A DNA stretch of 64,000 nucleotides from a virus: the IMG/VR virus record IMGVR_UViG_3300047564_005433, positions 1 through 64,000 of that record. One strand, written 5' to 3'. Under the pieces are notes generated by a model. The model was given only the letters and a program-made list of their open reading frames with translations, was not told the origin of the DNA and made no database searches. This document shows positions 3,902 to 59,675 of this stretch, in pieces. The translations under genes were made by a program, and so were the position numbers. The stretch's first letter is position 1. Each line of letters begins with the position of its first letter.

Positions 3902-3934
3902 TTTTCCACAGGCCTGTGGAAAAACTGTGGAAAA
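3902..3934. other. Cluster of three DnaA-box-like sequences
   Basis: TTTTCCACA (3902-3910) faces two inverted copies, TGTGGAAAA at 3915-3923 and 3926-3934, so three nonamers occupy 33 bp. The form TTTTCCACA is the DnaA-box variant I associate with cyanobacterial origins. The cluster lies in a 344-bp stretch (3780-4123) without a gene. An origin that recruits host DnaA is a reasonable inference; the first pair also forms a palindrome. Confidence 0.55.
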
Positions 3935-4022
3935 ACTCCTGCAATTGGAGAGATGCTCCCTAGATTCTCCAATCTCCTAGTGTTCACCGATCCTACGGAC
4001 TCTCGCCACACGGTCACCCTAT

Positions 4023-4106
4023 GGGCCCTGCAGGCATTGAAAAGGGCCCTTATGGGCCCTTGTGGCTGGTTTGATTGTGGGGCCCTTATGGGCCCTTGTG
4101 GGGCCC
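4023..4106. repeat. GGGCCC cluster with a duplicated 22-bp unit
   Basis: GGGCCC occurs six times in 84 bp (4023, 4044, 4054, 4080, 4090, 4101). A 22-bp unit of the form GGGCCCTTATGGGCCC plus TTGTGG occurs at 4044-4065 and again at 4080-4101. Each GGGCCC is itself a palindrome. The cluster lies between the DnaA boxes and the convergent end of the GP88-family gene. Function unknown; the regular spacing suggests a binding array. Confidence 0.6.
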
Positions 4107-4123
4107 CTCAGCATTCTTGATTG

Positions 4124-5035
4124 TCAGGCGATGCAGAATGATTCTTTATCGGCTGCGGTGTAGTTAATGCCGTGGGGTAGTTTGAAACGCAAGCCTACGA
4201 TATGGCCACCAGTTATATCAGACGGACGAAAATCAGTCAAATCACCATCTAGCACTGCGAACACTCTCCCGGTCATTCTGTCACTGGGTAGAAAATCGAA
4301 GCGCGAACAGTCAACATACTGAGGCAAATCCTGGCCACGTTTGAGAGAGAATGCGGCGGCCACGTTAACGCCAGATTGCAACGCGTCCCGGCAAATCTTA
4401 AGGTTCTGGGGATTGTTCCACCCGTCAAAACTAAACGTAAGATGATAGCCAAGCCGCTTACATTCTGCCCAATTGCGTTTGATTTTCGTATAATCATAAA
4501 ATTGCACCCTTGGCCCTCCATTGTTTGCGATGTAGTTAAACACTTCAAAGATGTTGCGCTTGCCGATAGGCAGATCCTGGCCAAACTTAACGCGGCAGAA
4601 TGCTGCAAACTCTGGCGTGATGGTAAAATCTACATTCTCCCACGCTATATCGCTTGTGCCGTTTAGTCTGATTGCAATGGGCTCGCCTGAATGTTTGGCA
4701 AGCTTGCCTAAGATTGCACAAACAATCAGCCGCGCAAATCTCTGTTTGTCTGCTGCGAATGCTAAAGTTCGGCGGATTCTTGCCGCTTGTTTGTTTGTCA
4801 TATAAACGGGGTTGCCTGCAAAATGTAGGCAAATCTTGCGACAATTTCCAGCGCCGGGGCAAACATTAACGCCACTGGTGTTGTCTGGGGCCAAATGTAG
4901 GATGTAGGTTTGAACTTTAGACTTCTCAGTTTTGGGATTGGTCGAGAGCAAATCACGGGCGCTGATTTTATATTGTTTGGCCATGGAAGCCAAATCAGCG
5001 GGCAGTTTGGCGCGACTGTTGATTGTTGCAGGCAT
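4124..5035 (-). CDS. GP88-family phage protein
   Basis: The 303-residue product has the signature I associate with the phage gene product 88 family: a segment beginning SGVNVCPGAGNCRKICL (three spaced Cys) near residues 55-75, then a basic region (NKQAARIRRT) and a central part with FYDYTKIKRNW and FSFDGWNNP. The Cys pattern suggests a metal or cluster site, but the biochemical role of the family is, to my knowledge, not settled. The gene lies on the minus strand between the origin-like repeats on both sides, 42 bases after a small ORF. The ATG at 5035 gives a natural start. Confidence 0.7.
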   Translation of the reverse strand: MPATINSRAKLPADLASMAKQYKISARDLLSTNPKTEKSKVQTYILHLAPDNTSGVNVCPGAGNCRKICLHFAGNPVYMTNKQAARIRRTLAFAADKQRFARLIVCAILGKLAKHSGEPIAIRLNGTSDIAWENVDFTITPEFAAFCRVKFGQDLPIGKRNIFEVFNYIANNGGPRVQFYDYTKIKRNWAECKRLGYHLTFSFDGWNNPQNLKICRDALQSGVNVAAAFSLKRGQDLPQYVDCSRFDFLPSDRMTGRVFAVLDGDLTDFRPSDITGGHIVGLRFKLPHGINYTAADKESFCIA

Positions 5036-5077: not shown

Positions 5078-5260
5078 CTATTGTTCGCCTGGCAGTTTGA
5101 TCTCAAGAATTCGAGCACTCCTAAAAGCATTCAAGGCGCCCATAACTGCAGAACTGCGCGATAATTCGGGATTAACTCGCATACCCTCGCTGAACAACAA
5201 GAATGCGGCGTTAAATTCTGCCTCAGTCAGCGTAGGGATTTGGCGATTGTTTGTGGCCAT
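5078..5260 (-). CDS. Small protein of unknown function
   Basis: A 60-residue protein (MATNNRQIPTLTEAEFNAAF...) predicted to be mostly helical, with no membrane segment. The start at 5260 is preceded by the bases TTTCAAACC, the same context (AAACC before ATG) as many small genes farther right. It lies directly upstream of the GP88-family gene on the same strand and could share a transcript. No family recognised. Confidence 0.5.
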   Translation of the reverse strand: MATNNRQIPTLTEAEFNAAFLLFSEGMRVNPELSRSSAVMGALNAFRSARILEIKLPGEQ

Positions 5261-5505
5261 GGTTTGAAACGGTTTGGAGAGGGTCGGTGGAATCGCTTCC
5301 GTCCGATGCATGCATCCTGCCAAATTTCAACGGGCTTGCATAGTGTGCGGTTTGGCAAACCGTCCACTGGTGTTAAGCGTTGCGGCATGGTACCAGGCCG
5401 CGCGATGCTCGCAACATCCGAACTAAAGAGATGAACGCGCCCGCGCGTACCATGGCAGCCGCCCATAGGTCAACCGTTGCAACATTCCGCAACATTCCAG
5501 CAAAT

Positions 5506-5635
5506 AACGCCATCGTGATAATGCAAACAACACAAGCGCAGAATCACAAACAACGCCATCGTGATAATGCAAACAACGCAAGCGTGATAATGGCAAGGGT
5601 ATCATCACGCCATAACGCTATCGTGATATCACGAT
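5506..5635. repeat. Iteron-like CGTGAT repeats and a 16-bp palindrome
   Basis: A 25-bp sequence starting AACGCCATCGTGATAATG occurs perfectly twice (5506-5530 and 5552-5576, period 46), followed by a shorter relative at 5575-5592. The core CGTGAT then recurs in both orientations, ending in the perfect palindrome ATCGTGATATCACGAT (5620-5635). Further copies of the core lie at about 5851 and, inverted, at 5874. Such iterons typically bind an initiator or repressor. No gene is credible across 5261-6017; the open frames here are repeat-derived. Confidence 0.65.
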
Positions 5636-5743
5636 TCCAGGCGCAAGCTTTTGTAACATTTCGTAACATAAGCTCAGCTTATCACTTCTATAAGCTTGGT
5701 TTATCAGTACAAACGTACTATGTGACAGTTGAGAATTGGCACA

Positions 5744-5773
5744 AGTACGCCTGTACTATAGTACGCCTGTACT
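5744..5773. repeat. Tandem 16-bp repeat of AGTACGCCTGTACT
   Basis: AGTACGCCTGTACT occurs at 5744-5757 and 5760-5773. Each copy is partly palindromic (AGTAC...GTACT), and the surrounding 100 bp is full of alternating GCGCAT and ATATGC steps. It is probably part of the same regulatory or origin array as the neighbouring repeats. Confidence 0.55.
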
Positions 5774-5880
5774 ACTATGCCTCTATGCGGCTATGCGCAT
5801 ACAACGATATCGCGATATGCGCATATGCGCATAAAAGCATATAACGGTAGCGTGATACGATTTTATGATTTCATCACGAT

Positions 5881-5995
5881 AAAATTTTAAAATTTTCCCA
5901 AGATACGCCCCTAGCCGGACCCAAGATACGCATCTAGCCGGTTCCAATTTTTCCTGATACGCATCTAGCCGTGCCCAAGATAGGAAACCAGCCGG
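5881..5995. repeat. AT-rich box and four direct repeats of about 22 bp
   Basis: AAAATTTTAAAATTTT (5881-5896) is followed by four imperfect direct repeats at 5897-5918, 5920-5941, 5951-5972 and 5974-5995. The best-conserved elements are GATACGC and CTAGCCG. An AT-rich box next to ordered direct repeats is the textbook layout of an iteron origin. The last repeat runs into a strong hairpin at 5991-6010. Confidence 0.65.
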
Positions 5996-6010
5996 GCCTT
6001 GTAGCCCGGC
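5991..6010 (+). terminator. Strong hairpin with T-run on the plus strand
   Basis: GCCGGGC pairs with GCCCGGC around the loop CTTGTA and is followed by TTTTGCTTT on the plus strand. It isolates the repeat region from the small-gene block on its right; on the minus strand it lies 8 bases after the stop of the 51-residue gene. Confidence 0.65.
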
Positions 6011-6017
6011 TTTTGCT

Positions 6018-32625: not shown

Positions 32626-32650
32626 AGGCGGCTTCTTCGGGAAACCGCCT
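32626..32650 (-). terminator. Terminator after the integrase gene
   Basis: AGGCGG pairs with CCGCCT around a 13-base loop, extended by inner pairs, and TCTTTTCC follows on the minus strand; the stem begins at the integrase stop codon. Confidence 0.65.
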
Positions 32651-33504
32651 CAAAGCACTGGCATCTCGTATTCCTGCGTGCTATTGCAATAGTGCTTGAA
32701 AATCACTTCGCTTGTATTGCCTGCCCAGTTGGCCACTTGTGGCACGGGAATGCCAGCTTCAATCCAGCGGCTAATAGCAGTGTGGCGACAATCATACGGC
32801 CTATAAACATGGGAAATTAGCCCTGCTTCATGCAGAGGCGAAAGCTTTTTCCTGAAATAGCTCTGAAAGGCAAGCCGATTCCATGGAAAAATAAATTCGT
32901 TTTCGCGAGGAAGCTCAGCAAGGATTTCTTGGCAACGAGCATTGATAGGCACCCAACGGCGCTTGTTGGTTTTCGTGCTGTTCTTTAAACCATGAGTGAG
33001 TGTATAGTTTTGGTGTACCAAAAGCTTATTTTCCTTAATATCGTCCCACTTGGCTGCCCTCACTTCTCCAGTGCGCATTGCAGTTTGCAACATAAATTCC
33101 GTGTACCAAGACCAATTAACATCGCGATAAGTTAGCTTCGCTTCTAATGCGGCAAGGACTAGGCCAGTTTCATTTCGAGGGATGACAACGATTTCCTCCT
33201 CGCGTTGAGGAGCCTTTGGCATTTTGAAGCTTGCCAATGGATTGCGAGCAACGATTGCCACGTCTTCTTGCGCCGCCCATTTGTACATAGTCTTGATGTA
33301 CATAGCAACGCGCCTTGAAGTGAGCACTGGCTTCTCTCCTAAAGCCCAAATCATTAATTTTCGTGCCTCGTTAATGTCTTGAATGGGGCAGCGAGCAAGC
33401 CATTTACCCACCTGCTTGTAGTCTGAAGTGAGACTGGTTGGACATAAAGAAATGGAGCGCTCTTCGACGAAGGCGCTCCAGAGGCTTGAGACAGTGGTGG
33501 TCAT
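32650..33504 (-). CDS. Tyrosine integrase
   Basis: The 284-residue protein has the phage integrase layout: an N-terminal core-binding-like domain (LWSAFVEERSISLCPTS...) and a C-terminal catalytic domain with Arg in LQTAMRTGEVRAAKWDDI, the Box II area YRPYDCRHTAISRWIEAGIPV and the Tyr in VIFKHYCNS. Compared with the classical R..H-x-x-R..[HW]..Y set, the first His is replaced by Tyr (YDCR) and the second by WAGN; these are seen in divergent integrases. It should catalyse site-specific integration of the phage. It is embedded in the tail-gene block and ends at its own terminator. Confidence 0.85.
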   Translation of the reverse strand: MTTTVSSLWSAFVEERSISLCPTSLTSDYKQVGKWLARCPIQDINEARKLMIWALGEKPVLTSRRVAMYIKTMYKWAAQEDVAIVARNPLASFKMPKAPQREEEIVVIPRNETGLVLAALEAKLTYRDVNWSWYTEFMLQTAMRTGEVRAAKWDDIKENKLLVHQNYTLTHGLKNSTKTNKRRWVPINARCQEILAELPRENEFIFPWNRLAFQSYFRKKLSPLHEAGLISHVYRPYDCRHTAISRWIEAGIPVPQVANWAGNTSEVIFKHYCNSTQEYEMPVL

Positions 33505-59390: not shown

Positions 59391-59675
59391 ATGTGGCTGC
59401 TTAAGAAAAGCGACGTGGATGTGCTTAAGATGCCTCATCAGCAGGCTCGTCTTCTCATTGCTTCTCGCATTAAAGAAGCCCGCCTTAATAGCGGGCTTTC
59501 TCAAAAGGACGTAGCTCAAGCTTTACATACAAGCCAAAGCTCTTATTCACGAATGGAACGCGCTGAACTGGCTCCAGATTGCGTGCAAATTCGCACTCTC
59601 AGTGGTCTCTATGGAATAAGCGTATTGTGGCTGATGGGCTACCCCTCGTTTATTCTCAACACGCGAAGAGATTAA
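59391..59675 (+). CDS. XRE-family HTH repressor or regulator
   Basis: The 94-residue protein (MWLLKKSDVDVLKMPHQQA...) contains ARLLIASRIKEARLNSGLSQ followed by QKDVAQALHTSQSSYSRMERAEL, the classic helix-turn-helix of CI/Cro/XRE regulators near residues 35-60. It lacks a large C-terminal cleavable domain, so it is more Cro-like or a short repressor. It is on the plus strand, facing the head operon, with the palindrome 59371-59386 next to its start. Together with the integrase this supports lysogeny control. Confidence 0.8.
   Translation: MWLLKKSDVDVLKMPHQQARLLIASRIKEARLNSGLSQKDVAQALHTSQSSYSRMERAELAPDCVQIRTLSGLYGISVLWLMGYPSFILNTRRD

Follow-up and report, generated by a model that had tools for sequence, protein, structure and literature searches.

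The cyanobacterial LexA regulon, which comprises recA, lexA and other genes, is read through a 14-bp box, RGTACNNNDGTWCB (PMC3091678). Host LexA operators are known from a phage of another host group: in GIL01, a temperate phage of Bacillus thuringiensis, host-type LexA boxes lie in the region of promoter P1 so that phage expression can follow the SOS response, and both the binding and the need for the phage protein gp7 were demonstrated by experiment (PMC4551915). Borrowing of a host stress regulator has also been predicted for T4-like cyanophages, whose sites for the nitrogen-sensing NtcA are scattered, at 1-16 per genome (PMC3037559). The locus described here resembles all three, and is most likely a switchboard in a Synechococcus virus that carries near-exact copies of host recA LexA sites. 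It differs from the host regulon in being viral, with two to three boxes, a tandem pair of which is spaced 16 bp apart, and with adjoining dyads; from GIL01 in its cyanobacterial host, its AGTAC-N4-GTACT motif and the further operator types interleaved with it, and in being known from sequence alone; and from the NtcA sites in that LexA-type sites, with Fur-type sites in relatives, are clustered in one hub. Our literature search, whose coverage was incomplete, found no reports of LexA or Fur boxes in cyanophages.

The DNA analysed (the window) covers the first 64,000 bases of a virus record of 73,391 bp. An exact 127-bp repeat is common to both ends of the record, which is therefore probably a complete, circularly assembled genome. 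This 73.4-kb genome is related to Synechococcus phage S-CBS4, a short stretch of which was the sole DNA match in the phage collection; the integrase encoded at 32650-33504 shares 80% identity with its counterpart in the freshwater Synechococcus phage S-LBS1. Thus the host is very probably a Synechococcus-like cyanobacterium, and the phage may be temperate. S-CBS4 itself was uninformative as a comparator, as its record has no GP88-family gene and its ends fall where the array would be; that record (L044 and L043, its two ends) stops inside the gene block bordering the array in our window, and may be incomplete or carry a deletion. No LexA boxes were found in S-LBS1. Related loci (n=41) were instead retrieved with GP88 as the query; they are not independent samples, and counts refer to distinct sequences where so stated. 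A GP88 scan of genome contigs returned just two: a contig from a Sphingobacteriales MAG, and a phage contig placed in the bin of a Rhodobiaceae MAG. The latter (NYTN01000042.1) equals a cyanophage-like viral contig in length and match (L046 and L037), and is probably a misbinned phage.

The original prediction described positions 5506-5995 as a dense, gene-free array of repeats and palindromes beside an AT-rich box, possibly serving as an origin or a repressor-binding hub. The array is real, and every element listed for it is present. Repeated 10-mers number 38 in it, where Markov shuffles average 0.3 and never exceed 6; short inverted repeats number 29, where the shuffles average 4.4 and never exceed 12. 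Among other 490-bp stretches its direct-repeat count was matched by repetitive coding sequence at 40 kb only, and its palindrome count by none. The perfect repeat AACGCCATCGTGATAATGCAAACAAC occurs twice, exactly 46 bp apart, within an array of 23-bp period, and the four 22-bp repeats resolve into three clear copies and a degenerate fourth. No known gene covers the array; the small genes flanking it are both on the minus strand, and all genes neighbouring it run leftward. The array keeps its position beside the same gene in many relatives, and the functional unit exceeds the predicted interval, taking in a GTTGC repeat, a promoter-like element and a conserved leader that extends to 5261. The features, from right to left, are as follows.

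5990-6016, plus strand: terminator-like GC hairpin, then T-rich sequence; not evident in the relatives read.
5902-5995, minus strand: CGGCT-N5/6-GTATC repeats, three clear and one degenerate, from a repeat scan.
5881-5896, no strand: AT-rich box AAAATTTTAAAATTTT, containing the predicted AAAATTTT tract (about 5881-5896); by eye not obvious in two relatives (L002 and L003).
5792-5832, no strand: three ATGCGCAT palindromes, from repeat and motif scans.
5760-5773, no strand: LexA-type box 2, AGTACGCCTGTACT, 16 bp from box 1.
5744-5757, no strand: LexA-type box 1, AGTACGCCTGTACT.
5721-5743, read on the minus strand: conserved dyad TGTGCCA-N9-TGTCACA, between LexA-type boxes 3 and 1.
5706-5719, minus strand: LexA-type box 3, AGTACGTTTGTACT.
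5668-5682, no strand: palindrome ATAAGCTCAGCTTAT; ATAAGC-type sequence in many relatives.
5653-5667, minus strand: direct repeat GTTAC-N5-GTTAC, from a motif scan of the record.
5620-5635, no strand: palindrome ATCGTGATATCACGAT, sharing a half-site with the iterons.
5501-5607, minus strand: four direct repeats of 23-bp period (family D2), unit TGTTTGCATTATCACGATGGCGT; comparable ones occur in about a third of relatives.
5479-5493, minus strand: direct repeat GTTGC-N5-GTTGC, immediately 5′ of the promoter -35.
5445-5473, minus strand: leftward promoter-like element TTGACC-N17-(TGG)TAC, aligned in 23 distinct sequences.
5261-5444, minus strand: conserved 5′ leader, with invariant arms CAACG (5382-5378) and CGTTG (5332-5328) and a GCGA-loop hairpin (5300-5289).
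5078-5260, minus strand: small ORF of 60 aa, the first downstream of the leader; it differs among relatives and has no Pfam or PHROG match.
4124-5035, minus strand: GP88-family protein (PF17338; Pfam E 8e-23), with invariant Cys residues in a 17-row alignment.

LexA-type boxes 1 and 2 agree at 13 of 14 bases with the Synechococcus WH8102 recA box CGTACGCCTGTACT, and box 3 agrees equally well with the recA box of Synechococcus CC9902, CGTACGTTTGTACT. All three fit the published consensus, which has only these three matches in the 73-kb record. With a LexA profile built from 48 published sites (median 16.9 bits, upper quartile 18.2), box 3 gives the best score of the record at 19.0 bits and boxes 1 and 2 come joint second at 18.5, the best match elsewhere reaching 11.3. 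When the same profile was applied to the relatives at 12 bits, it found 41 sites in 47 kb upstream of GP88 (1.2 kb per locus) against 8 in 435 kb of all other sequence, and the two large relatives G001 and G002 likewise have their best matches in the array region. Among relatives the arms of the boxes are constant and the four inner bases variable, as expected for a protein-binding palindrome. Several relatives have no LexA boxes at all; in five of the loci (L009, L013, L020-L022) multiple TTTAGCA-N5-TGCTAAA palindromes stand upstream of GP88 in their place.

The other elements of the array recur in the relatives to different extents. The dyad between boxes 3 and 1 is found in 12 related loci, in most of which it is flanked by LexA boxes. 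Two loci (L036 and L037) keep the dyad and have no LexA site above the profile threshold in the array region; here it is flanked instead by Fur-type boxes, GATAATGATTCTCATTCTC, with three mismatches to the 19-bp Fur consensus, of which L036 has about six. Two more (L004 and L027) carry both LexA and Fur-type boxes. In many relatives an ATAAGC-type sequence lies 3′ of the operator that follows the dyad, whether that operator is of LexA or of Fur type. The CGGCT-N5/6-GTATC repeats are present in about two thirds of relatives, in 1 to 6 copies. Within the 73-kb record the half-site ATCGTGATA of the palindrome at 5620 is confined to the array, and only two GTTRC-N5-GTTRC sites exist, both in the array region; the latter have some likeness to the RpaB HLR1 element, too loose to claim. 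Nor could the region be matched to a CRISPR or a known RNA, Rfam returning only weak, sub-threshold matches.

The tandem LexA-box geometry extends beyond these relatives. It occurs in 37 stretches among 2.9 million IMG/VR viral contigs, about half of them S-CBS4-like; the others have relatives among T7-like Prochlorococcus podoviruses, S-CRES3 and S-H1. We had been concerned that tandem AGTAC boxes might sit in phages of other hosts, but the contigs with identifiable relatives are mostly cyanophage (P-SSP6 89%, S-CRES3 78%, S-H1 38-48%; the terminase of L061 is 89% identical to those of Prochlorococcus podoviruses), with L070, L079 and some others having no host assignment. Up to six LexA-type boxes occur in a single contig (L089). 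The cultured Synechococcus phage S-CRES3 has a box identical to AGTACGCCTGTACT, and tandem AGTAC-type boxes adjoin a Fur-like palindrome in an intergenic region; an 800-bp intergenic region of this phage (L098, 3640-4360) holds Fur-like, LexA-type and CCCAACG-N2-TGGGT repeats. Fur-like 7-1-7 boxes are some 30 times enriched beside the LexA-box clusters of unrelated cyanophages, with 14 in the 18.8 kb within about 250 bp of 38 distinct clusters against 8 in 327 kb elsewhere. Zur, which is related to Fur and for which another box has been published, may read some of them. In a number of contigs (L060, L061, L063, L064, L071, L076, L079, L081) the LexA-type tandem arrays often lie within a few kb of DUF7227 or DUF7178 genes, which resembles the proximity of the window array to GP88.

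Leftward of the array, the promoter-like element scores below the threshold of a generic sigma-70 scan. Its arrangement, with a GTTRC direct repeat upstream and a leader of about 180 nt downstream, is common to the relatives. It is the best-conserved promoter of the locus, and the LexA-type boxes lie about 230-330 bp upstream of it; a possible second promoter, CTGTCA-N17-GATAAA, is a weak consensus match that overlaps box 3. Of 32 distinct leaders, 31 have at their end a GCGA- or GAGA-loop hairpin with a stem of at least 3 bp, whereas dinucleotide shuffles give 0.64; as these hairpins were chosen by loop and pairing the percentage paired is biased upward, but slid controls collapse. Both sides of the stem have changed at all seven pairs, and its covariation score of 0.648 compares with 0.180 in shuffles, none of 500 shuffles reaching the observed value. 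Such a GNRA loop with covariation implies that the leader DNA works as transcribed RNA, and so lends support to a leftward transcript that leaves the array and enters the small ORF and GP88. The leader has no Rfam match at gathering score, and nothing relevant at permissive E; it is a possible new cis-regulatory RNA, present in over 30 relatives and belonging to no Rfam family.

Could the array instead be the phage replication origin, with an initiator binding the 23-bp iterons and melting the AT-rich box, as the order and spacing of the repeats had originally been taken to indicate? The likeness is a real one: iteron-type plasmid and phage origins also combine tandem direct repeats with a nearby AT-rich box, and the regular 23-bp spacing of the four copies falls within the criterion of about 17-24 bp for such origins. 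The genes on both sides of the array in the window point the same way, and in the three largest genomes the array is 1.7, 2.2 and 3.4 kb away from the minimum of detrended GC skew. Skew does turn nearby (minimum at 4,019, about 1.6 kb away), but outside the array and in only some of the relatives; several have no change of sign, and upstream the skew stays negative for only about 9 kb. Related phages do carry the array, but the iteron core is in only about a third of them. Further, an adjacent initiator gene or DnaA boxes would be expected of an iteron-type origin, whereas the neighbours here are small ORFs and GP88, with a primase-helicase at 18-20 kb. A DnaA box is absent from the array, and the only perfect DnaA boxes in the 73-kb record, three copies of TTTTCCACA (which we take to be the cyanobacterial form), start at 3902, 3915 and 3926, within 33 bp (3902-3934) downstream of GP88 and beside the skew minimum at 4019. 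Taken together, skew in the three large genomes, skew in the flanks of relatives, iteron conservation and the DnaA-box scan do not support an origin in the array, which we consider improbable. Because it holds the only perfect DnaA boxes and adjoins the skew minimum, the intergenic stretch at 3.9 kb would be the better candidate, if an origin is here. Two perfect DnaA boxes occur at the matching place in L009 and L020-L022, and none in most other relatives. GC-rich repeats, GGGCCCTTATGGGCCCTTGTGG, lie between GP88 and these boxes (4013-4111), and one relative (L008, after 10909) has a palindrome, TTCTCAATAAGGCGCGTTATTGAGAA, where the window has DnaA boxes, making this a second variable site.

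Two further readings accept that the palindromes bind regulators and assign them differently. They could be operators of a phage-encoded repressor, such as the HTH_3 protein at 59391-59675, the likeness to LexA boxes being convergent; a CI-like HTH_3 protein is encoded by this phage, by S-CBS4 and by several relatives, and the dyads ATCGTGATATCACGAT and TGTGCCA-N9-TGTCACA have no assigned reader. For these other dyads such a repressor is likely. As an account of the AGTAC boxes we find it unlikely, if somewhat less so than an origin: it leaves unexplained their near-identity to host recA boxes and their presence in unrelated cyanophages and beside Fur-like boxes, and the 62 bp preceding the HTH gene show no AGTAC dyad. 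Alternatively, the array could be a decoy that titrates host LexA (Fur in relatives), so derepressing host repair or iron genes with no control of a phage promoter. Loci with as many host-type operators in one place as the LexA-type cluster of L089 or the Fur-type cluster of L036 would suit such a role. This phage has only three boxes, however, and their fixed arrangement around the dyad, with a promoter and RNA leader adjoining, points to regulation in cis; we regard a decoy as very improbable, the least probable of these readings.

We return to the repressor-binding hub, the part of the original prediction that is well supported: LexA-type operators, other dyads, an adjoining promoter and structured leader, and a position conserved across relatives all argue for it. 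In our judgement the array probably controls a leftward phage promoter from upstream, and is read by host LexA at two or three operators as well as by other DNA-binding factors. We infer LexA binding, and likewise that the outcome is repression, not activation or titration, and which genes respond and in which direction. In an undamaged cell, LexA dimers bound at 5706, 5744 and 5760 would hold down leftward transcription into the small ORF, GP88 and the genes that follow. On DNA damage, RecA-triggered cleavage of LexA would release leftward transcription, and the phage would thus sense host DNA damage via the host's own sensor. A phage-encoded LexA was considered and set aside, as no S24/LexA-type gene was found in this phage. 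Its CI-like HTH_3 repressor has 94 aa and no peptidase domain, so could not itself sense activated RecA in the manner of lambda. In G002 the LexA boxes are present and an integrase was not detected, and a simple lysogeny switch therefore does not cover all cases; the LexA link may bear on lytic timing and not on induction alone, and infection may be tuned to host stress.

More tentatively, and at somewhat less than even odds, we suggest that several unrelated cyanophage lineages possess a stress-sensing hub of this kind, in which operators of host LexA and of the host Fur family sit together around shared dyads and replace one another in the manner of cassettes, with a promoter and its structured RNA leader downstream, an arrangement that would tune infection or induction to iron status as well as to DNA damage in the host. 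That Fur-type boxes take the place of LexA boxes in some relatives suggests that one layout serves to monitor different host stresses. Near-copies of the host recA LexA box in a phage region make the connection between DNA damage in the host and gene expression in the cyanophage concrete and testable.
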